A program made the position numbers and the translations under genes. Positions 8,590 through 45,312 of a stretch of DNA of 64,000 bases are shown piece by piece. The notes under the pieces are model-generated. The model ran no database searches. It worked only from the letters and a program-made list of their open reading frames with translations, and had not been told where the DNA came from. The DNA is from Epilithonimonas caeni DSM 17710 (GTDB lineage Bacteria; Bacteroidota; Bacteroidia; Flavobacteriales; Weeksellaceae): assembly GCF_000426465.1 (NCBI RefSeq), contig NZ_AUFK01000014.1, forward strand, positions 186,001-250,000, given 5' to 3'. Position 1 is the stretch's first letter. Each line of letters begins with the position of its first letter.

Positions 8590-9468
8590 CTATTCTTCAA
8601 TAGAATCCTTTGACAAAATATATTTATTCAGCATATGATCTGTCAATTGATGAAGTTCTGTATTATTATCGGGATTTTTTCCATCTGCAGTAAAAAACTC
8701 CACCTCATTTTGATACTTCGAGTACCAAATCCCTTTTGTTGACCTGATCGTATCAGGTTGGGTAATTCTTTTGAAATTGGCAATCAGCTTTGCATCAATA
8801 GCAATTAGTCCGTTTCTGGTATTATTACAATCTTCCGGAATATACTCTTTACCATTCCAATACATGCATTGCTTTGACAAAGTTTGAAGCAGTCCCAATC
8901 CTTTTCCTATATTCTGTTTTTCAGGAACATTCTCATCAGCTTTATACATTTTACTTCCCACGACGAAGGTTCCGCAAATTATGGCACCCATTATTCCCAG
9001 ATTACTTTGTTTGGTAAGAAACTCAGGAAGTTTAAAAACCGGGGTCGTTGTTATATTCACCACAATCTGGGATAGCTTTTCCACTAAAGATTTTGCTTCG
9101 TCATCAAAAGTGACATTAACATTGGTAATGGATGAATCATCATTGACTTTACTGAAGTTATGTGTACTACAAAAAGTTTTATAATCTTTATAGCCGAGAG
9201 ATTCGCTAAACCAGTCCAAAGTAACGTCATCTATATCATAATCTTTACCCTTTTCTACCAACGAAGTATAGAATCTAACAAACGTCCTTTCGTCCTTTGA
9301 AAAGCCAAATCTTTTTTCAAATTCCAAACTTAGATAAGCCGCAACTGAACTTTTGCTTCCTCTCGGAAGCATTTTTTTTGTCTCATCAAAAACAGTTTTG
9401 ACTAAAATTTTCTTCTTTTCATACATATAATTTATTTGAAGAATTAAATCGTTGTCCAAATTAGACAA
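8590..9468 (-). CDS. Conserved hypothetical protein with one membrane segment
   Basis: I do not recognise a named family. The protein has a soluble N-terminal alpha-helical domain (residues about 14-105; segments KSSVAAYLSLEFEKRFGFSK and DDVTLDWFSESLGYKDYKTF), an Asn/Ser/Asp-rich linker, one hydrophobic segment at about 178-198 and a C-terminal soluble domain. The C-terminal domain contains CMYWNGKEYIPEDCN with two cysteines. The longest frame uses TTG at 9468, but ATG at 9426 (MYEKKKIL) is likelier because a -7-like box at 9456-9463 overlaps the longer start. A TACGGATTTCC operator lies at 9486-9499. It is probably controlled with the operon at 12536. Confidence 0.7.
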   Translation of the reverse strand: MSNLDNDLILQINYMYEKKKILVKTVFDETKKMLPRGSKSSVAAYLSLEFEKRFGFSKDERTFVRFYTSLVEKGKDYDIDDVTLDWFSESLGYKDYKTFCSTHNFSKVNDDSSITNVNVTFDDEAKSLVEKLSQIVVNITTTPVFKLPEFLTKQSNLGIMGAIICGTFVVGSKMYKADENVPEKQNIGKGLGLLQTLSKQCMYWNGKEYIPEDCNNTRNGLIAIDAKLIANFKRITQPDTIRSTKGIWYSKYQNEVEFFTADGKNPDNNTELHQLTDHMLNKYILSKDSIEE

Positions 9469-9499
9469 ATGCTTGTCCTAAAAATTACGGATTTCCATA
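9456..9499 (-). promoter_or_regulatory. Candidate operator plus -7 box for the gene at 8590-9468
   Basis: On the minus strand TATGGAAATCCGTA (9499-9486) is followed after exactly 22 nt by TAATTTGG (9463-9456). The same arrangement and spacing occur at 12466-12509. No TTG -33 element is visible, which fits an activator-dependent promoter. Confidence 0.55.
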
Positions 9500-9649
9500 A
9501 AACATATCATATTCACGTCCTTCTCATGTCCATCGTGTGTCTGGGATTGGACAATCACTTTAACTGAAATTTGTAATCAGAAATCAGTGATAAACAAAAC
9601 ATTACAAAAACAAAGTTACAAAACTGGTTTCAAAAAACAACCTGATAAG

Positions 9650-9697
9650 ACGGAGGAAGATCTCTGGCTTGGGAAGCAGAAATCTCTCTTCCGTTTT
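9650..9697 (+). other. Strong hairpin with T-run in the 346-nt gap; possible short RNA end or attenuator
   Basis: ACGGAGGAAGATCTCTG pairs with CAGAAATCTCTCTTCCGT (one bulge, one mismatch) around a GCTTGGGAAG loop, followed by TTTTT. It looks like a rho-independent terminator, yet no gene lies directly upstream on the plus strand. A short non-coding RNA or a leader attenuator for the small peptide gene are both possible. I see no other coding signal in 9500-9814. Confidence 0.45.
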
Positions 9698-9814
9698 TGA
9701 AGGTTTACTTCCCAAAAATTTAAGAAGCGCTTCTTTTTTCAACAATGTGTAAACATGCTTGTGACCTGTGTCGCAGGGAAGAACACGAATGTCAATTTTT
9801 AAATTTTTAAAATC

Positions 9815-9991
9815 ATGTTACAATTTCTTTTAATATTATTGGGATTAATTTCAAATCCTTCAAGTTCAAATAACAATACGTCCAACTGTGGTAATGACGG
9901 CAGCACAACGCCAACTGTTGCACAACCAAATCCGGGTGATACGGGTGGAGAAGAAGGACATCCAGTGCCTCCAAAAATTATTGGTGGTTGA
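9815..9991 (+). CDS. Small secreted peptide precursor, 58 residues
   Basis: This short gene begins ATG TTA CAA TTT CTT TTA ATA and ends at TGA 9989-9991. The N-terminus MLQFLLILLGLISNPSSS looks like a short signal peptide or membrane anchor. The rest is Ser/Asn/Thr/Pro/Gly-rich with one Cys (NTSNCGNDG) and a C-terminal VPPKIIGG. There is no family match I know. It has its own strong terminator 20 nt downstream and lies directly before the sensor kinase gene. It could be a peptide signal, a small lipid-surface component, or the substrate of the sensor; function is not shown by the sequence. Confidence 0.55.
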   Translation: MLQFLLILLGLISNPSSSNNNTSNCGNDGSTTPTVAQPNPGDTGGEEGHPVPPKIIGG

Positions 9992-10010
9992 TAAACTACT
10001 TAAAATCAGC

Positions 10011-10043
10011 TAGCGAAAGATTATTCTTTCGCTATTTTTTTTT
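10011..10043 (+). terminator. Rho-independent terminator after the small peptide gene
   Basis: A perfect 10-bp stem TAGCGAAAGA / TCTTTCGCTA with a TTAT loop and nine following T residues. It isolates the peptide gene transcript from the kinase gene that starts 25 nt later. Confidence 0.9.
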
Positions 10044-10067
10044 AATTTGGTATAAAAACTGATTGTC

Positions 10068-11726
10068 TTGAAATTTTTATACTTTTTACTCGGATTATCA
10101 TTTCTTATAGGCTGCTCTGAACATTCAATCAAGGAAATTGAAAAGACAACTGACAATGCATTTTATGACAAAGCGTTCGATTTCAGAGAAAAAAACGAAT
10201 TAGACAGTTCATTTCTGTATTTCTTCAGAGCAAAAGATATTTTCCTTCAGAAAAAAGATAGTTTTGGAGTTGGAAAATGTCTTGCAAATCTTGCAATAAT
10301 ACAGGAAACCAAAGGCGATTACTTTGGCAGCCAAGAAAGCGGACTTTCTGCACTGGATTATTTCAATCAAAGAGATAGTATCGAATATAATTATATCTCA
10401 ATAAATTACAACACTCTAAGCATTGTTTCAAGTAGATTAAAAGACTATAAAAAAGCTATCGAATTTTATTTACAGTCCATAAAATTTAGTAATGATTCTA
10501 TAAATAAAAATATTTATAGAAACAATCTCGCAAATTCTTACAGAAAAGAAAAAAAATATAATTCTGCTTCTAAAATATTCCAATCCATTTTAGATAATAA
10601 CACTAAAAAAGATAAGGAATACTCGAGAGCCTTATCAAACTTTGCATATAGCAAATGGCTTCAAAATTCAAATTTCAATCCTATTCCCGAATTTAAACAG
10701 GCTCTCAATATTAGGATTAAAGAGAAGGATCTTTGGGGACAAAATGCCAGCTATGCTCATTTCGCAGATTATTATTCAAGAAAAAAATCTGACTCAGCAT
10801 TGTTTTATGCGAAAAAAATGTTTGATGTTTCCAATAAAATTAAAAGTCCGGACGACCAGATCGAAGCATTGCAGAAGCTCATTGTTCTGGATTCCAAAAA
10901 TTACGCATCACACTTCAGCCGATATCAAGCGTTGAATGACAGTCTTCAAACCGCAAGAAACAAAGCGAAAAATCAGTTTGCCCTGATCCGATATGAAACC
11001 GAAAAGAATAAAGCAGACTTTCTGAAAGCCAAAGCTGAAAGCACTGAAAGACAAAATAAAATCACCGCTCGGAACATTATAGTGATTTCACTAATTGTAT
11101 TATTTATTATTGCCTTTTTCTACTACAAAAAAAGACTTCAACAAGAAAAAATTATTGAAGCTAAAAACACCGAAATTAAATATTCCAAAAAAGTCCACGA
11201 CCGTGTTGCCAACAGAATCTATCAAATTATATCTTTCATAGAAAACACCCTGCATCTGGATAAAAATTCTATTCTTTTTGCATTGGAAAATGTATACGAA
11301 ACGTCACGTGACATTTCATATGAAAATGTGGATGTGAGCGAGAAACAAAATTATCGCGACCAACTTTCGCAAATGCTTGGCTCCTACTCTTCGCCTAAAA
11401 CTGTGCAGGTCATCATTACTGGAAACGATGACGAAATATGGCAAAACACCAACTTGCTTCAGAAAACAGAAGTCTATCTGGTTCTTCAAGAACTGATGAC
11501 GAATATGAAAAAACATAGCCAGGCCAATATCGTTTCGATTAAATTTTCCAGAGAAAACTCAAAGATAAACATCTCATATACAGACAACGGCATCGGAATA
11601 AAACAACTTTCACCAAAAAATGGTCTTCAAAATATGGAAAACCGTATTAATGCTATCAACGGAACAATTATTTTTGACACAGAAACCAATAATCTATTGA
11701 AAATCAATATTTCATTTCCAGTCTAA
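10068..11726 (+). CDS. TPR-containing sensor histidine kinase with lipoprotein signal
   Basis: The product is 552 residues with a TTG start. The signal peptide ends in the lipobox FLIGC (Cys16). Residues about 30-290 are helical TPR-type repeats. A transmembrane helix follows at about 335-352 (IIVISLIVLFIIAFFYY), then a dimerisation/phosphoacceptor region with His near residue 376 (SKKVHDRVANRIYQ). The HATPase_c domain shows the N-box LQELMTNMKKHS, DNGIG and NGLQNMENRI. This is the HisKA_3/NarX-like architecture paired with LuxR-type regulators. The TPR part should face the periplasm and sense a protein or peptide. The response regulator follows 10 nt downstream. Confidence 0.85.
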   Translation: MKFLYFLLGLSFLIGCSEHSIKEIEKTTDNAFYDKAFDFREKNELDSSFLYFFRAKDIFLQKKDSFGVGKCLANLAIIQETKGDYFGSQESGLSALDYFNQRDSIEYNYISINYNTLSIVSSRLKDYKKAIEFYLQSIKFSNDSINKNIYRNNLANSYRKEKKYNSASKIFQSILDNNTKKDKEYSRALSNFAYSKWLQNSNFNPIPEFKQALNIRIKEKDLWGQNASYAHFADYYSRKKSDSALFYAKKMFDVSNKIKSPDDQIEALQKLIVLDSKNYASHFSRYQALNDSLQTARNKAKNQFALIRYETEKNKADFLKAKAESTERQNKITARNIIVISLIVLFIIAFFYYKKRLQQEKIIEAKNTEIKYSKKVHDRVANRIYQIISFIENTLHLDKNSILFALENVYETSRDISYENVDVSEKQNYRDQLSQMLGSYSSPKTVQVIITGNDDEIWQNTNLLQKTEVYLVLQELMTNMKKHSQANIVSIKFSRENSKINISYTDNGIGIKQLSPKNGLQNMENRINAINGTIIFDTETNNLLKINISFPV

Positions 11727-11736
11727 AATAACACTT

Positions 11737-12402
11737 ATGTTTACAAAAATCCTTATCGCTGAAGATTACGAAAGCTCCAATATCTCTGTTCAAAAAACTT
11801 TGGAAGACCTTAAAATTGCGAATCCAAAATATGTCAACTATTGTGATGATGCCCTTAGCAGAATCAAAATGAGTTTGCAGGAAAACAATCCTTTCGAACT
11901 TTTAATAACAGACCTTTCTTTTGACGAAGACCACAGGGAACAGAATCTTAAAAATGGTCAGCAACTTATTTCTGCCGCAAGAGAACTTCATCCGAATCTG
12001 AAAGTGATTGTTTTTTCTGTTGAAAAAAAAGAAGTTATCATTGAGAAGCTCTTCAATGAGCAAAAAATAAACGGTTATGTAAAAAAGGGGCGTGAAGATG
12101 TGAAAGACCTGAAAAAAGCGATAAGAGCAGTTTTTAATGGTGAAAAATACCTTTCGTACGAATTAAAAGGTAAAAGCGAGGAAAGAAATTCCTTCGAATT
12201 TTCCGAATACGACACATTACTGGTTTCTTTGCTGGCTAATGGAACCCTTTTAAAAGACATTCCCAATTATCTGAAAGAAAATCAAATAAAGCCGGTCAGT
12301 ATGAGTGCTGTGGAAAAAAGACTGAAGGAAATCAAAGAATCCTTAAACATCAATAGCAATGAACAACTGATTGCATTCTGCAAAGACTTTGGGATTATAT
12401 AA
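11737..12402 (+). CDS. Response regulator, receiver plus LuxR-like HTH
   Basis: Residues 1-125 are a receiver domain: acidic pair AED at 8-10, phosphoacceptor Asp59 in LLITDLSF, and the conserved lysine in INGYVKKG (about 116). Residues about 155-221 form a helical DNA-binding domain of NarL/LuxR type (SEYDTLLVSLLANGTLLKDI, then SAVEKRLKEIKESLNI). Length of 221 residues is normal for this class. It is the cognate partner of the upstream kinase by operon position. The repeated TACGGATTTCC(G/A)TA sites flanking this gene pair are good candidates for its binding sites, which is inference. Confidence 0.88.
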   Translation: MFTKILIAEDYESSNISVQKTLEDLKIANPKYVNYCDDALSRIKMSLQENNPFELLITDLSFDEDHREQNLKNGQQLISAARELHPNLKVIVFSVEKKEVIIEKLFNEQKINGYVKKGREDVKDLKKAIRAVFNGEKYLSYELKGKSEERNSFEFSEYDTLLVSLLANGTLLKDIPNYLKENQIKPVSMSAVEKRLKEIKESLNINSNEQLIAFCKDFGII

Positions 12403-12427
12403 AATTCAATAATAAACAGATTATTTT

Positions 12428-12466
12428 AAAAACTTTCGAAAATATTTTCGAAAGTTTTTTGTTTTT
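12428..12466 (+). terminator. Rho-independent terminator after the response regulator
   Basis: AAAACTTTCGAAAA and TTTTCGAAAGTTTT form a long stem separated by TAT, followed by a T-rich tail. It ends the kinase-regulator transcript before the next operator. Confidence 0.85.
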
Positions 12467-12509
12467 ACGGATTTCCGTAAAAAAAGAATATCAGGCAGAA
12501 GTAATTTTG
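12466..12509 (+). promoter_or_regulatory. Candidate operator plus -7 box for the operon at 12536
   Basis: TACGGATTTCCGTA (12466-12479) has symmetric TACGG/CCGTA arms. After 22 nt comes TAATTTTG (12502-12509), a perfect TAnnTTTG -7 box. No TTG is found at the -33 position. This duplicates the arrangement at 9499-9456 and suggests activation by the adjacent response regulator. Confidence 0.6.
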
Positions 12510-12535
12510 GATTGTTAAACAAATGAAAAACAACA

Positions 12536-12868
12536 ATGGGAAAATTCATCATCACAAAAAGAAAAGACGGAGAATATCAATTCAATCTCAAGGCCGGTAA
12601 CGGAGAGATCATCCTTACAAGTGAAGGGTACACCACAAAAGCAGGATGCAAAAATGGAATCGAATCCGTAAAAGTCAATTCCCAAATCGACTCCAGATTT
12701 GAGAGAAGAACTTCTACGAATGATAAAGATTACTTTGTTCTGAAAGCCGGAAATGGTGAAATAATCGGTAAAAGCCAATTATATAGCTCCAAACAAGGAA
12801 TGGAAAACGGAATAGCATCCGTAAAAGATAATGCTCCAACCGCAGAAATCATTGACGAAACAAATTAA
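12536..12868 (+). CDS. YegP family protein (DUF1508), two tandem domains
   Basis: The 110-residue protein is two copies of the DUF1508 unit. Copy 1 (residues 2-48) reads FIITKRKDGEYQFNLKAGNGEIILTSEGY then KNGIESVK. Copy 2 (about 60-100) reads YFVLKAGNGEIIGKSQLYSS then ENGIASVK. The fold is a small beta-rich domain of unknown biochemical role, known from E. coli YegP. It opens an operon: the nuclease-like gene begins 9 nt after its stop. A conserved -7 box and a TACGGATTTCCGTA operator precede it, so expression probably depends on the neighbouring two-component system. Confidence 0.9.
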   Translation: MGKFIITKRKDGEYQFNLKAGNGEIILTSEGYTTKAGCKNGIESVKVNSQIDSRFERRTSTNDKDYFVLKAGNGEIIGKSQLYSSKQGMENGIASVKDNAPTAEIIDETN

Positions 12869-12877
12869 CTAATAACC

Positions 12878-13945
12878 ATGGAACTCAAATTAAAACTTGA
12901 ACAACTGCATCAGCGAGTGAATGGCCTTAAAGACCAGATCCAGACGGAAGAAGCTACGAAAACGGCTTTTGTAATGCCTTTTATTCAGATTCTGGGCTAT
13001 GATATTTTCAATCCCACAGAAGTGATTCCGGAATTCATCGCAGATATTGGAACCAAAAAAGGAGAAAAAGTTGATTTTGTTATTAAGAAAGACAATGAAC
13101 CCATTTTCATTATCGAATGTAAAAGCTGGAAAGAAAATGCAGATGCCCACAATTCACAGCTTCATCGGTATTATCATGTTTCCAAAGCGAGGTTCGGAGT
13201 TTTGACCAACGGGATTGTTTACAATTTCTATACTGATCTGGAAAAACCAAACATTATGGACGAGAAGCCTTTCTTCACCATCAATCTTGATGATTTGAAG
13301 GATAGCTCTATCAAAGTTCTTGAAAGTTTTACAAAATCAGGTTATAATCTGGAATCGATCTTAGACTCTGCAGAAGCATTAAAGTATATCAAAGCCGTCA
13401 GAAAGGAATTCGAAAAAGAGATCGAAAATCCATCTGACGAAATGGTGAGATTACTGGTCAACCGATTTTTTGAAAGACCGCTTACGGCCAATAGAATGGT
13501 CTCTTTTAAAGAATATACCAAAAGAGCTTTAAGCATTTCGATCTCGGAATCCATCAGCTCCCGTCTAAAATCTGCTCTGGTCATCAATGATAATATCGAA
13601 ACTGAAAAAACAACGGTCCCGACAAACATTGACCAGAATAATGACACTCCAAAAGTTATAACAACGGACGAAGAATTGGAAGCTTTCCAAATCGTGAAAG
13701 CCATTCTGCGTGAAAAAATCCCTGCAGAAAGAATTGCTTACCGGGACACACAATCTTATTTCGGGATCCTACTGGATGATAACAATAGAAAACCGATCTG
13801 CAGATTCTATTTCGGAGCTACCAGAAACCTTGTTGAACTCTTCCACAATGGAAAAGATGCCGGAGAGAAAATAAATCTTGATTCTCTGGATGATATCTAC
13901 AATTATAGAAACGAACTTCATAAAACCATTGAAAATTATAGTTAA
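12878..13945 (+). CDS. Type I restriction enzyme R N-terminal-like (HsdR_N) nuclease-fold protein, stand-alone
   Basis: Residues about 20-135 match the HsdR N-terminal PD-(D/E)xK fold: EEATKTAFVMPFIQILGYD with the conserved helix Glu, KVDFVIKKD with the catalytic Asp, and IFIIECKSWK with the E-x-K pair. All expected catalytic residues are present. The remaining 200 residues are helical (about 150-230) and end in a compact C-terminal domain (RIAYRDTQSYFGILLDDNNR, then CRFYFGATRN). No helicase motor, methyltransferase or specificity subunit is nearby, so it is not a normal restriction system. It may cut or bind DNA in a stress or defence setting. Confidence 0.82.
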   Translation: MELKLKLEQLHQRVNGLKDQIQTEEATKTAFVMPFIQILGYDIFNPTEVIPEFIADIGTKKGEKVDFVIKKDNEPIFIIECKSWKENADAHNSQLHRYYHVSKARFGVLTNGIVYNFYTDLEKPNIMDEKPFFTINLDDLKDSSIKVLESFTKSGYNLESILDSAEALKYIKAVRKEFEKEIENPSDEMVRLLVNRFFERPLTANRMVSFKEYTKRALSISISESISSRLKSALVINDNIETEKTTVPTNIDQNNDTPKVITTDEELEAFQIVKAILREKIPAERIAYRDTQSYFGILLDDNNRKPICRFYFGATRNLVELFHNGKDAGEKINLDSLDDIYNYRNELHKTIENYS

Positions 13946-14449
13946 ATGAGAAATATTTTGCTTTTAGTTTCAAGTATATTTTTAATGACGTTATCATTAT
14001 TTTCCTTTTCGAAATCTGAAAATAATGGACATAACGGAAGATGCACAGGTTCTGCATACTGCACTGCCTGTTCCAATTGTTCCAGATGCGGACATTGTGG
14101 CGCTGGTGGAACTTGTGGTGTTTGCAGTAATAAAGGACAAAGAAATATTAGTATTACTGATCATTCAGCAGAAAAACCGAACACTTCTAAGTCTTATAAA
14201 GCCAGTAGAAAAAGTGGATTTCAGAAAACTCCAAATGCTGTCATTGACCATTCTGACATTACAATTCTTATCATATCCGAACGTTCCACAAATATTTTTG
14301 AAAAACCATCTTTCCAGTCAAAAGTAGTAGAAAATATTTCCAAAAATGAAAAGTTAATCCAAATCTCAAAATTAGATAACTGGTATAAAATAAAAGTTAA
14401 AAGTAGCGGGAAAATAGGATTTATTTATTACAAGGATGTAAAATCATGA
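13946..14449 (+). CDS. Secreted Cys-rich protein with bacterial SH3 domain
   Basis: Translation starts on the base after the previous stop, so it is tightly coupled. A signal peptide covers about residues 1-24 (NILLLVSSIFLMTLSLFSFS). Residues about 32-62 hold a dense Cys/Gly/His cluster (CTGSAYCTACSNCSRCGHCG, then TCGVC), nine cysteines in 28 residues. The spacing suggests metal binding or a disulfide knot. Residues about 105-166 form an SH3_3-type domain (RSTNIFEKPSFQSKVVENIS, then WYKIKVKSSGKIGFIYYKDV), usually binding cell wall or ligands. Function is unknown. Confidence 0.82.
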   Translation: MRNILLLVSSIFLMTLSLFSFSKSENNGHNGRCTGSAYCTACSNCSRCGHCGAGGTCGVCSNKGQRNISITDHSAEKPNTSKSYKASRKSGFQKTPNAVIDHSDITILIISERSTNIFEKPSFQSKVVENISKNEKLIQISKLDNWYKIKVKSSGKIGFIYYKDVKS

Positions 14450-14626
14450 TCCGGTCTTCAAAAATAATAGCTTTATTTTTCCCTTAGTGTATAGCGTTGG
14501 TAGGCTTATTCAAGCAAATAAAAAATAAAAAAAGAATCCAATAAAACTCTACAAATTGCTTTACATTTTATAAACAAACATGGGCAATTTCGCCATATAG
14601 AGTTACAACCTAAAAATGAAAACATT

Positions 14627-15253
14627 ATGAATTTAAAGAAATTTTTAAACGAAGAACAAGACCCCAAGGCTGTAGAAAAGCTTCTGGAAAGAATCAAAAG
14701 CCTTCTTACTTCTCAGGAGTTTGTAGAATATATTGCTGTCCAGAAAAAGCCAGCTCTCAATCTATCGCCGGACTGCATTGCCCTCACTAACAGAAGAATT
14801 ATTTTCTGCCGACCAAAAACATTTGGCCTTTCAATGGATTTTCAAGATTACAGCTGGATAGATGTTGCTGATTGTCATATCAAAGAAGGGATTATTGGCG
14901 CTACTTTTATGATGAGAACTACAAGAAATTTCACCAATATGATGGATTATCTCCCAAAAGCTCAGGCAAGAAAGCTCTATCAATACGCTCAGGAAATCGA
15001 GGAACAAATGAGAGGTGTAAGAAGAGAAAAAGAGCTTGAGGTCCGAAGAGCTTCAGCAGGAGGTGTCACCGTAAATAATGCGACACCAATTATTACGCAT
15101 CCTCAACAATTTCATCAGCAGCCACCAGCATTGCAGATAGAAAATGAAGATCCATTTGCTCTCTTGCAAAAATTAAAAGGATTAATGGAAAACGGCATCA
15201 TTTCGCCTGAAGAATTCGAAATTAAAAAAAATGAAATCTTATCAAGAGTTTAA
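14627..15253 (+). CDS. PH-like domain protein with C-terminal SHOCT domain
   Basis: Residues about 30-125 resemble the YokE-like bacterial PH domain (SPDCIALTNRRIIFCRPK, SMDFQDYSWIDVADCHIKEG). Residues 125-165 are a charged coiled segment and a Gln/His/Pro linker. The last 35 residues are a SHOCT motif (DPFALLQKLKGLMENGIISPEEFEIKKNEIL), a short module often at the ends of membrane-associated or oligomeric proteins. There is no signal peptide. It begins a second gene run after a 177-nt gap; the next gene follows by 4 nt. Likely a cytoplasmic membrane-linked adaptor (inference). Confidence 0.85.
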   Translation: MNLKKFLNEEQDPKAVEKLLERIKSLLTSQEFVEYIAVQKKPALNLSPDCIALTNRRIIFCRPKTFGLSMDFQDYSWIDVADCHIKEGIIGATFMMRTTRNFTNMMDYLPKAQARKLYQYAQEIEEQMRGVRREKELEVRRASAGGVTVNNATPIITHPQQFHQQPPALQIENEDPFALLQKLKGLMENGIISPEEFEIKKNEILSRV

Positions 15254-15257
15254 TATT

Positions 15258-15473
15258 ATGAAATCAAAATCTACTACCGTATTGCTTGCTTTTTTCCTGG
15301 GAGGAATAGGCGTTCACAGATTCTATTTGGGACAGAACATTCTCGGATTGCTTTATCTTTTGTTCTGCTGGACTTTTATACCTGCATTGATTGCGCTCTT
15401 CGATTTCTTCATTTTCATTTTTATGTCAGAAGATAATTTTAATTATAAATATAATATCCGGACAGGATTTTAA
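15258..15473 (+). CDS. TM2 domain membrane protein
   Basis: The 71-residue protein is a minimal TM2 domain: a KSTTVLLAFFLGGIGVHRFYLG helix with the GxHRFYxG motif, a turn with QNILGLLYLLF, then a second helix ending in a DFF motif. A longer frame from 15231 would overlap the previous gene's end; the ATG at 15258 follows that stop by 4 nt and gives the standard N-terminus. It is an inner-membrane protein of unknown role, here embedded in a multi-gene operon. Confidence 0.88.
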   Translation: MKSKSTTVLLAFFLGGIGVHRFYLGQNILGLLYLLFCWTFIPALIALFDFFIFIFMSEDNFNYKYNIRTGF

Positions 15474-15484
15474 AATCAGAAAAG

Positions 15485-15880
15485 ATGAAACCATTTCTCT
15501 CCCTCTGTGCGATATGTTGTTTCATCGGTATTTTCAAACTTCCCATAGAATATTATACTTTTCTCCGAACGCTTGTTTCTGTTGGTGCTTTAATTATTTT
15601 ATATAATACTTTAAGCTTTAGACAACATTATTTCAGTATAATTTTTCTTATCATCCTTATTCTTTTCAATCCTGTTTTTCCCGTTTATTTATACCGGAAA
15701 AGTTTATGGATCCCGATTGACACAATTACAGGAATACTATTTCTGTTAATTACTTTTCTTGAAAAGCAGGAACAAAAAGAGGAAGACAAAATCATCGAAG
15801 AAACTTCAGAATACCCAACATATCAAAGCTCTCCTTCACGAGATAAAATCATTAATCCTAAAAAACCAAAAGAAGAATAA
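15485..15880 (+). CDS. Small membrane protein, DUF6804-like
   Basis: The 131-residue protein has about four hydrophobic helices in residues 1-92 and an acidic then basic soluble tail. The layout, with a P-x-x-YYTFLR element near the first loop and NPVFPVYLYRKSLWIPID before the last helix, resembles the DUF6804 family of small membrane proteins. I am moderately sure of that assignment. It sits 11 nt after the TM2 gene and 5 nt before the TerB-like gene, so it is part of the same transcript. Confidence 0.75.
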   Translation: MKPFLSLCAICCFIGIFKLPIEYYTFLRTLVSVGALIILYNTLSFRQHYFSIIFLIILILFNPVFPVYLYRKSLWIPIDTITGILFLLITFLEKQEQKEEDKIIEETSEYPTYQSSPSRDKIINPKKPKEE

Positions 15881-15885
15881 AGGTT

Positions 15886-16293
15886 ATGGAGAAGAATCAA
15901 ATAACAGAAAAACTCAAAGCTCATTTTTTAAGGCTTTATCAGATGGCAATCTGCGATGATGATTTCAGTGCTTTAGAATTGAAGATGTTATACAAATGCG
16001 CCGAAGAAAGGGGGATTTCATCTAAAAATCTAGACGATATCCTTTTAAATCCTATCAACATAAAATCATTGGTACCACAAACCATCGAAGAAAAAATCGA
16101 CTATCTCTATGATCTTACCATCATGATCTGGGCAGACGGAATCGTTTCTCCGGATGAATATTCTGCAATGCAAAAATATGTTCTGATGTTCGGTTTCTTA
16201 GAAGAAAATGCAATGGCAATCGTAGATTATATGATTGAAGCTGTAAAAGTCGGAAAACATAAAAATGAGATCATATTTGAATTAAAAAACTGA
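15886..16293 (+). CDS. TerB-like helical domain protein
   Basis: The 135-residue all-helical protein carries the two acidic helix starts typical of TerB-like domains: AICDDDFSALELKMLYKCAE (about 21-40) and WADGIVSPDEYSAMQKYVLM (about 84-104). TerB domains bind metal ions and occur in tellurium/stress-response and membrane-linked systems. It lies between a small membrane protein and a coiled-coil membrane protein, with 5-6 nt gaps. No TerC, TerD or TerZ homolog is in the window, so this is not a standard ter operon. Confidence 0.72.
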   Translation: MEKNQITEKLKAHFLRLYQMAICDDDFSALELKMLYKCAEERGISSKNLDDILLNPINIKSLVPQTIEEKIDYLYDLTIMIWADGIVSPDEYSAMQKYVLMFGFLEENAMAIVDYMIEAVKVGKHKNEIIFELKN

Positions 16294-16299
16294 TGTATT

Positions 16300-17640
16300 A
16301 TGGATACTACAAGTATAAAAAATTTATTTAAATTAAAGTCTGTTGCAATAGAACCTAAGCAAGAGCAACTTCCAAAAGTTGAAATAGATTCTAGCGAAGA
16401 ATCTCCCGAAGAAAGCAGGAAAAGAACCTATCACGAATCCGGATACAGAGATAGTTCCAGAACCAGCGGAAACCACTCTACCCTCTCAATTTGTCTGGAT
16501 GCGGTTTATTCAAAATTCCAGAATGAGGAAAAAGAGATGGTTGAAAAACAGCAAAAACTGAAAGAATCTTACATCAACGAGCAAAAGAACAAAGAAACTG
16601 AGATAAAAGCATTAACAGTTTCACAAGAAACCAAAGAGGAACAGCTAAAAAGCAAAAACTCAGAAGTTGAAATCCACCAAAATCAAATTGAAGCCCTTAA
16701 AGCAGAGATCATTGATCTGCCAAGAAATCCAGAAAAATATAATGTAAAAGCGACCAGAGGCGCATCTGCAAAATTCTGGATTGGTAGCATTCTTCTTTTA
16801 CCGATAAGTCTATATCTATTCACATTTTATGTTTCGACTTCTTATTCTGCTTTTTTTAAAAACTTTGATGCAAAAAGTACGGTTATACAAAGTGTCTTCG
16901 ATGCGCAAGCTTTCAGCAAAGCCTGGAACGAAGGACTGATTGAAGGAGCTTTCGTTACTTTAATTCCATTTGTATTTCTTGGATTGGGATTTCTGATCCA
17001 TATGTTTGGCGAAAACAAATCCAGAGCAAATCACATCAAACTGGGTTTACTCTTCATCGTAACATTTATTTTCGATGCCATTTTAGCCTATGAAATTGAA
17101 GCGAGATTGTACGAATTGAATAAAACCTTCAATTCCCCAGAGTTTGACCTTCAAATTGCATTGACCAAAAATCAATTTTGGGGAATTATCTTCGCAGGGT
17201 TCATTGTTTATATCATATGGGGATTGGTCTTTGACTTTGTAATGAAAGAACACAGAGAAAAAGATAAGATCAGAAGTGAACAGGAGATCAGGCAGAAAAA
17301 TGTTCTCTCTCTTTTAGAAAAAATAAATGTTTTGAAAAAAGATATTGAAGAAATCTTAGCCAGCATCGGAACAACAAAAGAACTGACCATCAAAACAAGA
17401 GGTAGGATCGAAGAACTTCAAAATATTATCGATGGAGTGATCATCCCGACCAAAGACTACAAACTTTATGCTTCTGAATATGTGCAAGGCTGGATCACTT
17501 TTATCGGTGAAAAAATAGCAGTTTCCAAAACGGAAAAACAGACAATGATTGACAGCTGTATTGAAACTTACAATGCAAACCTGGAAAATGTTGGCGCAAA
17601 CTCTGATAATCAAAACCTGGTCTACCTATCATCCTTATAA
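16300..17640 (+). CDS. Four-helix membrane protein with flanking coiled coils
   Basis: I do not recognise a family. Residues 1-65 are polar and disordered-looking. Residues about 68-145 form a long Lys/Glu/Gln coiled coil (EEKEMVEKQQKLKESYINEQ and onward). Four membrane helices follow at about 160-182, 213-236, 248-268 and 292-315. A second coiled coil covers about 320-385, and then a short globular end. The layout suggests an oligomeric inner-membrane scaffold with cytoplasmic coiled-coil arms. The TerB-like gene lies 6 nt upstream and the vWA-like lipoprotein 7 nt downstream. Confidence 0.78.
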   Translation: MDTTSIKNLFKLKSVAIEPKQEQLPKVEIDSSEESPEESRKRTYHESGYRDSSRTSGNHSTLSICLDAVYSKFQNEEKEMVEKQQKLKESYINEQKNKETEIKALTVSQETKEEQLKSKNSEVEIHQNQIEALKAEIIDLPRNPEKYNVKATRGASAKFWIGSILLLPISLYLFTFYVSTSYSAFFKNFDAKSTVIQSVFDAQAFSKAWNEGLIEGAFVTLIPFVFLGLGFLIHMFGENKSRANHIKLGLLFIVTFIFDAILAYEIEARLYELNKTFNSPEFDLQIALTKNQFWGIIFAGFIVYIIWGLVFDFVMKEHREKDKIRSEQEIRQKNVLSLLEKINVLKKDIEEILASIGTTKELTIKTRGRIEELQNIIDGVIIPTKDYKLYASEYVQGWITFIGEKIAVSKTEKQTMIDSCIETYNANLENVGANSDNQNLVYLSSL

Positions 17641-17647
17641 ACGTATT

Positions 17648-18526
17648 ATGAAAAGAATATTTTACCTATTAATGATCATTTCTGTAACTTCTTGTTGTAA
17701 AACAGAAATGCCAGATTGTACGGATTGTAAACCAATTGTTGATTCAAATAATATCAATGTCAGTATTTTGATCGATCTATCGGATAGAATTGCTCCGAAA
17801 ATCAATCCAAACCCGACAATGGAATATTTCCAACGGGATACAGAATATATCAAAGCAATCGAAAAAGGATTTCTAGATCATATCAAATCAAAAAAGATCA
17901 TTACTTACGATGACCAGATGCAGGTTTTCTTCAATCCTGAACCTTCTGATCCGAAAACGAATGAATTTACAAAACAACTTAAAGTGTCCTTTGATAAAAA
18001 TACCCGCAAAGATCACTTTGCTTTTGTTGACAAAAAATATTCTGAGTTACCTTTGAATATCTATCAATCAGCAATTCATGACGGACATTACGTAGGTTCT
18101 GATATTTGGGAGTTCTTTAAAAATAAAGTTAATGATTATTGCATCAGAAACGATAGAAAAAACATCCTTTTCATCTTGACTGATGGATATATGTATCATG
18201 AGAACACAAAATTTGAAGAAGAAAATAAAACTTCTTATCTGACCACCAAATTGATAAAATCAAACAATCTTTCAACTTCCAATTTTAAAGCTATAATCGA
18301 AAAAAGCAAGTTTGGTTTTGTCAAAGCCAACGATAATCTGAGTAATCTGGAAGTTATGGTCCTTGGAATCAATCCGGAAAAGGGCAATCCTTTTGAAGAA
18401 GCAGTAATAAAAGCATACTGGGAAAACTGGTTTAAAGAAATGAAGATTAAAAAATTTCAAATAAAATCGGCGGATCTTCCAAGCAATCTTGAACCCGTGA
18501 TCAAACAATTCATTTTGAATAAATGA
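17648..18526 (+). CDS. Lipoprotein with von Willebrand factor A-like fold
   Basis: A longer open frame starts at 17549 inside the previous gene. I chose ATG 17648 because it gives a textbook lipoprotein signal: KRIFYLLMIISVTSC with Cys16. The mature part holds a vWA-like core: VSILIDLSDRI (MIDAS-like D-x-S), a helical middle, and KNILFILTDGYMY with the later MIDAS Asp. The 292-residue length suits one vWA domain. It would sit on the membrane surface as a metal-dependent adhesion or assembly factor. It is the last gene of the run and ends 11 nt before a terminator. Confidence 0.8.
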   Translation: MKRIFYLLMIISVTSCCKTEMPDCTDCKPIVDSNNINVSILIDLSDRIAPKINPNPTMEYFQRDTEYIKAIEKGFLDHIKSKKIITYDDQMQVFFNPEPSDPKTNEFTKQLKVSFDKNTRKDHFAFVDKKYSELPLNIYQSAIHDGHYVGSDIWEFFKNKVNDYCIRNDRKNILFILTDGYMYHENTKFEEENKTSYLTTKLIKSNNLSTSNFKAIIEKSKFGFVKANDNLSNLEVMVLGINPEKGNPFEEAVIKAYWENWFKEMKIKKFQIKSADLPSNLEPVIKQFILNK

Positions 18527-44814: not shown

Positions 44815-44820
44815 CATTTT

Positions 44821-45312
44821 ATGAAAAACCGTAAACGAACATTCAAAATATTTATTTCCATAGTGTTTTTATGGGTTTGTGGACATTTGATTTATATAAC
44901 TATTGACGGTTTGACAGACAAAAAAATGAATGCAGACATTGCTGTCGTTTTAGGCAATAAGGTAAATGAAGATGGGACACTTTCAGAAAGACTTGAAAAA
45001 CGTATGGAATGTGGACTTAATCTTTACAATTCTGGACGAGTAAAAAAAATATTGGTTAGTGGTGGACTTGGAAAAGAAGGATTTTACGAAGGAGACAAAA
45101 TGAAAGAATATTTGATTAAACACAATGTGCCTGATAGTGTAATAATCGTTGACAATTTGGGCAGTAATACCCTTGCAACGGTAACAAACACCCCCCGCTG
45201 GTGCGAGCGTCACGCTCGTACTTGCAATAGGCACAAGCAAGATGCCTGCGCCAGCACTAAAAAAGAAGACCAAAACCTCATGCCAGTAAAGAATCCAATT
45301 TTATGCAAATAA
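44821..45312 (+). pseudogene. YdcF/SanA-like (DUF218) membrane protein, truncated by a repeat insertion
   Basis: Start ATG 44821 gives a signal/anchor (FKIFISIVFLWVCGHLIYIT) and DUF218 motifs: ADIAVVLGNKVNEDGT, RVKKILVSGGLGKEGFYEGD and DSVIIVDNLGSNTLATV. Up to about residue 124 the protein looks normal. Then the frame runs into a GAGCGTCACGCTC repeat and continues as unrelated residues to 45312, where the C-terminal third of the domain is missing. A full family member is about 200 residues. A repeat insertion has probably destroyed the gene. Confidence 0.75.
45193..45256 (+). repeat. REP-like palindromic element, copy A
   Basis: CCCCGCTGGTGCGAGCGTCA with CGAGCGT/ACGCTCG arms, then AGGCACAAGCAAGATG, and GCGCCAGC closing the outer arm to GCTGG. 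A second copy lies at 47693-47752. It is inserted inside the YdcF-like gene. Confidence 0.75.

Follow-up and report, generated by a model that had tools for sequence, protein, structure and literature searches.

Results

Organization of the locus

The locus analyzed here lies at positions 8590-18526 of a 64,000-nucleotide stretch of the Epilithonimonas caeni DSM 17710 genome (contig NZ_AUFK01000014.1, positions 186,001-250,000, forward strand; hereafter the window). It carries genes for a small peptide, a sensor histidine kinase with a tetratricopeptide repeat (TPR) domain and a response regulator and, behind a probable palindromic operator, an operon that ends in TerB-like, coiled-coil membrane protein and lipoprotein genes (Table 1). 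The locus is a real, conserved unit, its conservation being far above chance, and copies of its operator-promoter precede anti-phage genes elsewhere in genomes of this genus. All open reading frames (ORFs) listed for 8590-18526 were found at their coordinates in a check against the ORF listing.

Kinase and regulator were identified as a two-component pair by Pfam matches to HATPase_c (E 1.1e-4) and Response_reg (E 1.4e-5), respectively, which were significant and both slightly under Pfam's curated cut-off; together with the TPR match, they bear out the sensor kinase and response regulator of the initial annotation. The kinase H and N/G boxes, lipobox and transmembrane (TM) segment and the acceptor Asp of the regulator were all read by eye. 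The TPR domain is predicted to be periplasmic. The LuxR-type label of the regulator did not hold at cut-off, as Pfam gave no GerE match and the best NCBIfam match (MctR, 2.2e-6) was far below its own cut-off; by eye only, the C-terminal part is LuxR-like in appearance.

The protein encoded at 8590 matched no family in the Pfam scan. Its AlphaFold model was poor (mean predicted local distance difference test score, pLDDT, 56.7), and a fold search of the Protein Data Bank (PDB) with this model gave nothing at E<=0.001. The idea that its N-terminal domain is common to other proteins was rejected, since one match per genome was found in 13 of 15 genomes, these 13 being all those with a match.

The genes behind the regulator had been annotated as two effector operons. 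The genes are present, but are better read as one operon driven by the operator at 12465, in which the gap 14450-14626 may hold an internal start. The AlphaFold model of the coiled-coil membrane protein was also poor (mean pLDDT 63.7). A PADLOC search with ten window proteins gave only weak matches, those of the nuclease-fold and TerB-like proteins being PDC-S54 (0.002), Cas4 (0.003), PDC-S48 (2e-4) and DrmC (0.003), so that the effector operon is not a listed defense system. The terminal lipoprotein, labeled vWA before, had no VWA match in Pfam, NCBIfam or PDB and retains only its DLSDR and ILTDGY motifs, which we take to be vWA-like. These motifs and the TerB-like protein had suggested a variant of a Ter-type stress system. 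With the TerB match standing as a weak one below cut-off, no VWA family match and no TerC or TerD among 16 proteins scanned, we consider such a variant the most improbable of the explanations weighed here.

Table 1. Features of the locus (window coordinates; TM, transmembrane).
Feature	Position	Strand	Structure or motif	Evidence and remarks
Single-TM protein	8590..9468	-	N-terminal helical domain variable; C-terminal CMYWNGKEYIPEDC..FFTADG domain conserved	TM by eye; 19-row alignment; diverges from peptide gene; own degenerate operator
Degenerate operator-promoter reading into 8590	9456..9500 (G000:C4:195456-195500)	-	TTATGGAAATCCGTAA-N21-TAATTTGG	2 mismatches
Three 11-bp-phased repeats	9516..9543	.	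GTCC/GTCC/GTCT	Read from alignment
Structured RNA	9635..9741	+	Long stem-loop; apical loop (UUGGGAAG) pairs with downstream CUUCCCAA (pseudoknot); short palindromic GAAGCGCUUC hairpin; U-run	
58-aa peptide	9815..9991	+	Hydrophobic N-terminus; Ser/Asn/Thr linker; PGDTGGEEGHPVPPKIIGG tail	
Intrinsic terminator of peptide transcript	10011..10034	+		
Lipoprotein-type TPR sensor histidine kinase	10068..11726	+	Sensor 26-310; TM ~335-353; kinase 371-552	Pfam TPR and HATPase_c
Response regulator	11737..12402	+	Receiver; C-terminal helix-turn-helix-like region	Receiver match; C-terminal region by eye
Terminator 3' of regulator	12428..12459	+		
Perfect operator-promoter of cargo operon	12465..12509	+	TTACGGATTTCCGTAA-N21-TAATTTTG	
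YegP-like DUF1508 protein	12536..12868	+		Variable cargo; Pfam E 9.7e-45
HSDR_N nuclease-fold protein	12878..13945	+		Variable cargo; Pfam E 7.2e-15
Cys-rich SH3 protein	13946..14449	+		Cargo; SH3_3 E 8e-6, just below cut-off
bPH_3/SHOCT protein	14627..15253	+		Cargo; Pfam
TM2 membrane protein	15231..15473	+		Cargo; Pfam
DUF6804 membrane protein	15485..15880	+		Pfam
TerB-like protein	15886..16293	+		Conserved effector core; TerB E 0.008, below Pfam cut-off
Coiled-coil membrane protein	16300..17640	+	~4 TM helices (by eye)	Conserved effector core; survey anchor
Lipoprotein	17648..18526	+	DLSDR/ILTDGY motifs	Conserved effector core

The module is conserved across families

Within the genus, 23 genomes including the window's own (G000) were compared. 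An orthologous kinase (group A, 56-75 % identical) was present in 18 of them, the window's own among these; a paralogous group B is about 40 % identical. At 17 of the 18 group-A kinase loci, the peptide ORF lay directly 5' of the kinase gene with an 8590-type gene diverging from it. The exception was G006, in which only the C-terminal part of the 8590 type is nearby and the regulator copy lies elsewhere. This order was kept at more than one chromosomal site. The DUF6804-TerB-coiled-coil-lipoprotein operon stood 3' of the module in 10/18 group-A loci, and the coiled-coil gene was found nowhere else in the 23 genomes apart from a broken fragment in G008; G001, one of the genomes without the gene, is an incomplete assembly.

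The coiled-coil protein was then the sole query in a survey of the phylum and matched in 20 of 395 genomes. All 11 newly fetched loci (L088-L098), which represent the same family, the order and another family within the class, carried the kinase, the regulator and an 8590-like protein beside the coiled-coil gene and a peptide ORF in the same slot. At the matches in distant classes (L099-L102, of which L100 is a short contig), the coiled-coil gene was accompanied by the lipoprotein gene and no kinase was detected.

A further collection consisted of the best 80 of 197 relatives of the coiled-coil protein, several of them on cut contigs, from genera including Chryseobacterium, Elizabethkingia, Pedobacter, Tenacibaculum, Cellulophaga and Winogradskyella. 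On the 5' side of the coiled-coil gene, the kinase, regulator and TerB genes were each found in 74 of these loci, the 8590-like gene in 71, the peptide gene in 70, the pseudoknotted RNA in 68 and a perfect operator palindrome in 63 (in 61 between regulator and coiled-coil gene); the lipoprotein gene followed 3' in 80/80. For the 74 loci that have 7 kb or more of 5' sequence, the counts were kinase 73, regulator 73, TerB 69, 8590-like 71, peptide 69, RNA 67, palindrome 62 and lipoprotein 74. Peptides were counted heuristically (ATG ORF of 40-110 aa, hydrophobic start, P/G/D-rich end) and RNAs by a motif-plus-fold scan. The sequence begins within the kinase gene in L309 and L363, and less than 2.5 kb of 5' sequence is present in L323, L365, L379 and L382. 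L377 (Leeuwenhoekiella) is a full-length locus without the kinase and thus a true exception; in L376 the kinase gene lies downstream. By sequence comparison, the 8590 protein, RNA, peptide, TPR kinase and regulator are co-inherited across Weeksellaceae, Flavobacteriaceae and Pedobacter.

The initial annotation had proposed an undescribed system, to be abandoned if the homologs were scattered singly. They cluster instead, with kinase and regulator at 11/11 new and 74/80 named loci, and the literature search found neither the module nor its operator described, nor any peptide-TPR kinase system of Bacteroidota. That the genes are merely neighbors in a defense-island hotspot would fit the cargo between regulator and effector core, which differs among loci, but is very improbable and largely refuted by an order kept at different chromosomal sites and across families, the shared operator and the syntenic RNA.

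The small peptide is a conserved coding gene beside the kinase

The peptide is encoded by a real gene with its own terminator, as annotated before. In-frame homologs occupy the same position at 17/18 same-genus loci with an orthologous kinase, the ratio of nonsynonymous to synonymous differences (pN/pS) was 0.29, and pN was smaller than pS in 55/55 pairs (11 of the 17 sequences, those caught by the script). The same-genus peptides have a common MLNLLLILLGLISNP start and TGGE.GHP.PPK-like tails. At Flavobacteriaceae-type loci, the slot is filled by peptides with lipoprotein-like signals and ends such as ATEGPGDD..PPKK; position and composition, not sequence, are kept across loci. The peptide gene is constantly beside the sensor kinase gene, as in pheromone-type systems, and among the ORFs listed 5' of group-B kinases no comparable peptide ORF was seen. 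In one module (L037:5558-5924), two different peptide genes stand in tandem.

A pseudoknotted RNA precedes the peptide gene

A structured RNA 5' of the peptide gene, absent from the initial annotation, was found at the locus. In same-genus copies, its hairpin ends in a U-run. With a covariance model, a single copy was detected in each of 17 out of 59 relatives, and these 17 are all group-A genomes; three genomes of a neighboring genus gave strong matches. By the motif-plus-fold scan, the pseudoknot was present in 31/31 module intergenic regions compared with 1/930 dinucleotide shuffles, 9/330 background windows (windows holding the element itself included) and none of 21 regions 5' of other kinases (raw 2/23, both of which, L063 and L064, are true modules). 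The reverse strands of 14/31 module intergenic regions also scored, as would be expected of a near-palindrome; frequent G-U pairs favor the peptide strand.

Loop and partner change together across families (GGGAAG/CUUCCC, GAGAAG/CUUCUC and GGAAAG/CUUUCC). Changes on both sides were seen in 3/9 pseudoknot pairs among 24 sequences and in 4/34 pairs among 17 sequences, each in one sequence; these counts were reached by 0/500 shuffles, and slid structures gave 0-2 and 0-3. Further pair types in the 24-sequence alignment showed no excess over shuffles (476/500 reached the count). At the gathering cut-off, Rfam matched only tRNAs, and a permissive search gave three sub-threshold matches, none at the RNA element. 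The RNA probably controls peptide expression and may act as a leader, in the manner of a riboswitch or as a small RNA of its own. A type III toxin-antitoxin arrangement, with a pseudoknot RNA before a small gene, was also considered, with no toxin candidate emerging.

Sensor and kinase domains have been exchanged

Comparison of the window with L031 revealed a natural chimera. The flanks are near-identical, as are the peptide (100 %) and the sensor (98 %), whereas the kinase and regulator are only 43 % and 44 % identical; one breakpoint lies between the sensor and TM parts of the kinase gene and a second around the effector operon, the yegP-hsdRN genes being nearly unchanged. Among 86 kinases, pairs ranged from sensor 98/kinase 43 to sensor 25/kinase 98, and similarity was strongly correlated between kinase and regulator (r 0.91) and only 0.54 between sensor and kinase. 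The similarity of 75 peptides correlated with that of the sensor (r 0.71; partial r 0.56 given the kinase, Mantel p 0.001), and given the sensor the partial r of peptide and kinase was 0.50 as well. In agr-type systems, specificity modules recombine, and by analogy the exchange pattern seen here is suggestive of such modules with the peptide as ligand.

The peptide could alternatively act as a small effector or a toxin-like molecule, with the RNA leader restraining its expression; it would then be just one output of the system, and the kinase would sense envelope damage. The structured leader, the terminator of its own and an N-terminus with a strong hydrophobic stretch and no positive residues would all suit such a product. 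We nevertheless consider it quite unlikely, for the peptide gene has no operator-promoter directed at it on its own strand, even at up to 3 mismatches, peptide similarity tracks the sensor beyond the kinase, and the hydrophilic, low-complexity tail is unlike known small membrane toxins.

A common putative operator-promoter precedes the cargo operon and unlinked operons

The likely operator is the palindrome TTACGGnnnnCCGTAA, a perfect copy of which lies between the regulator and the first cargo gene in 10/10 same-genus loci with the operon. Among 70 distinct perfect palindromes in the fetched loci, 36 were followed exactly 21 nt on by TAnnTTTG, which we take to be the Bacteroidota -7 box consensus, compared with 8 at all other spacings from 0 to 60. 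A palindrome 21 nt before the -7 box sits at the -33 element position, as expected for an activator site. Allowing up to one mismatch, the composite TTACGGnnnnCCGTAA-N21-TAnnTTTG had 0-15 copies per genome and was present in 27 of the 30 family genomes and in 19 of another 20; the reversed control matched in none of the 30 or the 20. At up to 3 mismatches, the window's own genome gave 21 matches versus 9 for the reversed control, and hence only sites with few mismatches were trusted. Operons unlinked to the module are also preceded by the composite promoter.

Genomes with regulator A had more sites (mean 7.9, n=18) than those with the paralog only (2.6, n=5; p 0.003, also per Mb). Where both regulators were missing (four genomes), the counts were 0, 0, 0 and 2 sites; G010, whose regulator is only 44 % identical, had 2. 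These counts are consistent with the operator being bound by the regulator of the module. The regulator-operon link of the initial annotation is favored by a shared operator; the terminator at 12428-12459 and the promoter at 12465-12509 separate the regulator from the cargo.

The phased repeats near the degenerate operator recur in the 8590-peptide intergenic region of many loci, with wording that differs by lineage, and are possibly a binding site of a second regulator or another factor. An operator-like palindrome with two mismatches lies at window positions 44818-44835.

Anti-phage genes stand behind the operator in this genus

Perfect same-genus sites (34) were taken from chosen, non-random loci, namely sites outside own-module and group-B loci in 11 genomes, plus some in G000, G018, G019, G006, G001 and G004. 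At 24 of them, the first gene (or the second where the first was tiny) was at least about 150 aa and was scanned with PADLOC (E<=1e-5), 14 of these genes in a first round, selected on visual inspection, and the other ten afterwards; the remaining 10 sites had only smaller genes or none. The controls were the large genes closest to the sites on the opposite side: 20 of 29 nearest upstream genes, leaving out L156 and L157 (regulon members), L151 and L260 (near-duplicates), and L192, L258, L259, L264 and L266. Sites with one mismatch were also searched and are not counted in the 24.

Matches were obtained for 10/24 genes behind sites and 2/20 controls, one of the latter weak (Fisher p 0.02, or 0.005 without the weak control match). 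The ten comprise a CBASS cyclase with HORMA and TRIP13 (L153), bSEFIR with a DpdF-like helicase (L156), dynamin-like LeoA (L161), PDC-S19 (L170), Hachiman HamA/HamB (L172), a SIR2/ThsA-like protein with a methyltransferase (L176), Gabija GajA/GajB (L178), an AriA/OLD-like ATPase (L183), PARIS AriA/AriB (L256) and SIR2 with HerA (L262). The operator thus stands before several unlinked defense operons in this genus, which may belong to the regulator of the module. Other site-linked genes encode DUF6119/TIGR04141 proteins and many small lipoproteins.

The window's own genome has ten sites with at most one mismatch. Behind them lie the cargo operon, a gene pair including a protein kinase, three small lipoproteins that stand alone, a single small membrane protein, a set of large proteins without an assigned family, a pair that looks SbcC/D-like by eye and is followed by an AAA_13 ATPase, a DUF3606 gene and, at a distance of at least 0.4 kb, a CBASS operon.

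Discussion

Sequence comparison leads us to read the locus as a self-contained cassette, a peptide-coupled two-component switch with agr-like sensor swapping that would control an immune and envelope regulon; we hold the chances of this reading to be about even. The peptide, its expression set by the RNA, would be exported and then read by the periplasmic TPR domain of the kinase, which would phosphorylate the regulator. The regulator would bind the palindrome at the -33 position and activate a membrane complex of the TerB-like, coiled-coil and lipoprotein products, and the same regulator would switch on unlinked operons, in this genus anti-phage systems among them. In its action, the whole cassette would resemble a two-component system that responds to a peptide pheromone or danger signal and is linked to immunity. 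In a bolder and more doubtful form, still a tentative possibility, a released, strain-typed peptide whose output is set by the pseudoknot RNA would be read by the extracytoplasmic TPR kinase of neighboring cells and would, through one regulator class, arm the membrane complex together with CBASS, Gabija, Hachiman, PARIS and SIR2-HerA via the common operator, the system being diversified into pherotypes.

Several observations weigh against the cassette reading. PADLOC matched 0/10 first genes at perfect sites in other genera, and the immune link is therefore seen in this genus only, so that the defense role raised by the initial annotation is favored within the genus and not beyond it. These ten genes came from 23 loci with a perfect site; the unscanned 13 were seven modules' own operons and six with small genes, none or (L303) a gene like a scanned one. 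Sites within the genus were not sampled at random. The CBASS operon of the window's own genome lies 0.4 kb or more beyond a one-mismatch site, and only a lone small lipoprotein stands behind 3/10 sites. The effector operon is absent from 7/17 same-genus modules, and 17/80 named loci lack a perfect palindrome 5' of the effector gene. Peptide similarity also tracks the kinase (partial r 0.50 given the sensor), and export of the peptide, which the model presumes, is uncertain because its N-terminus, though hydrophobic, is without the usual positive residues. Finally, the ownership of the sites is ambiguous because group-B loci carry a near-identical operator.

This last point gives rise to the main rival, in which the unlinked operators are chiefly those of the paralogous regulator B, or are used by both regulators, and the module governs no more than itself and its membrane effector operon, serving as a local system for envelope stress or competition. 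The group-B regulator is present in 23/23 same-genus genomes, one copy with an in-frame stop, and has the operator, with the center TTTC/GAAA, right behind it; the resemblance of the effector proteins to membrane proteins or lipoproteins and the 0/10 result in other genera also fit this rival. It is opposed by the about 3-fold excess of sites in regulator-A genomes over B-only genomes. The palindrome center is not decisive, being all-A/T, as at 12465, in 7/10 defense sites and 16/24 other perfect sites. Taken together, we judge this rival rather unlikely, though regulator B may share the operators. In the window's own genome, the group-B kinase-regulator pair (G000:C3:294485-296893, L050) lies in a conserved chromosomal context without peptide or RNA.

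The cassette resembles agr and ComD/ComE in that a peptide gene adjoins kinase and regulator genes and in that kinase and regulator remain a matched pair as the sensor half varies and recombines. Unlike those systems, it occurs in a Gram-negative host, has a TPR sensor with a lipobox and contains an additional pseudoknot RNA and single-TM protein. As in RRNPP regulators, a TPR domain is a possible receptor of short peptides, but RRNPP proteins are cytoplasmic, whereas the TPR domain here is predicted to be periplasmic and is fused to a kinase. With the local repressors BrxR and CapW it shares transcriptional control of defense genes; these are encoded inside one defense system, whereas here one operator class serves many unlinked operons.

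The Gac/Rsm pathway acts via its post-transcriptional Rsm branch. According to PMC11888443, it coordinates phage and antibacterial defense in Pseudomonas and is triggered by cell lysate, and pathways in other phyla are speculated there to await discovery. Gac/Rsm and the present locus have in common one two-component pathway with a variable, genome-wide defense set that includes anti-phage systems; unlike the lysate-triggered proteobacterial pathway (PMC11888443), the locus has direct operators, a linked peptide, a TPR sensor and a Bacteroidota host. For the joint on/off control of many phage-defense systems, the one worked-out example that we found is Pseudomonas Gac/Rsm (PMC11888443). With the concrete operator, regulator, sensor, peptide and RNA of this locus, such control becomes directly testable in another phylum.

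The operator pattern can also locate regulon members, and hence candidate new defense genes, in related genomes. Candidates of this kind are the genes directly behind perfect operators in L154 and L175 (DUF6119) and in L158 (a set of several genes that matched no family). L148 (G000:C7:283000-291000), from the window's own genome, contains an operon resembling CBASS, with CD-NTase, 2TM effector and, by eye, GGDEF-like genes, located 3' of two operators and a DUF3606 gene, and a small gene like the latter recurs behind the operator in L156 and L196.

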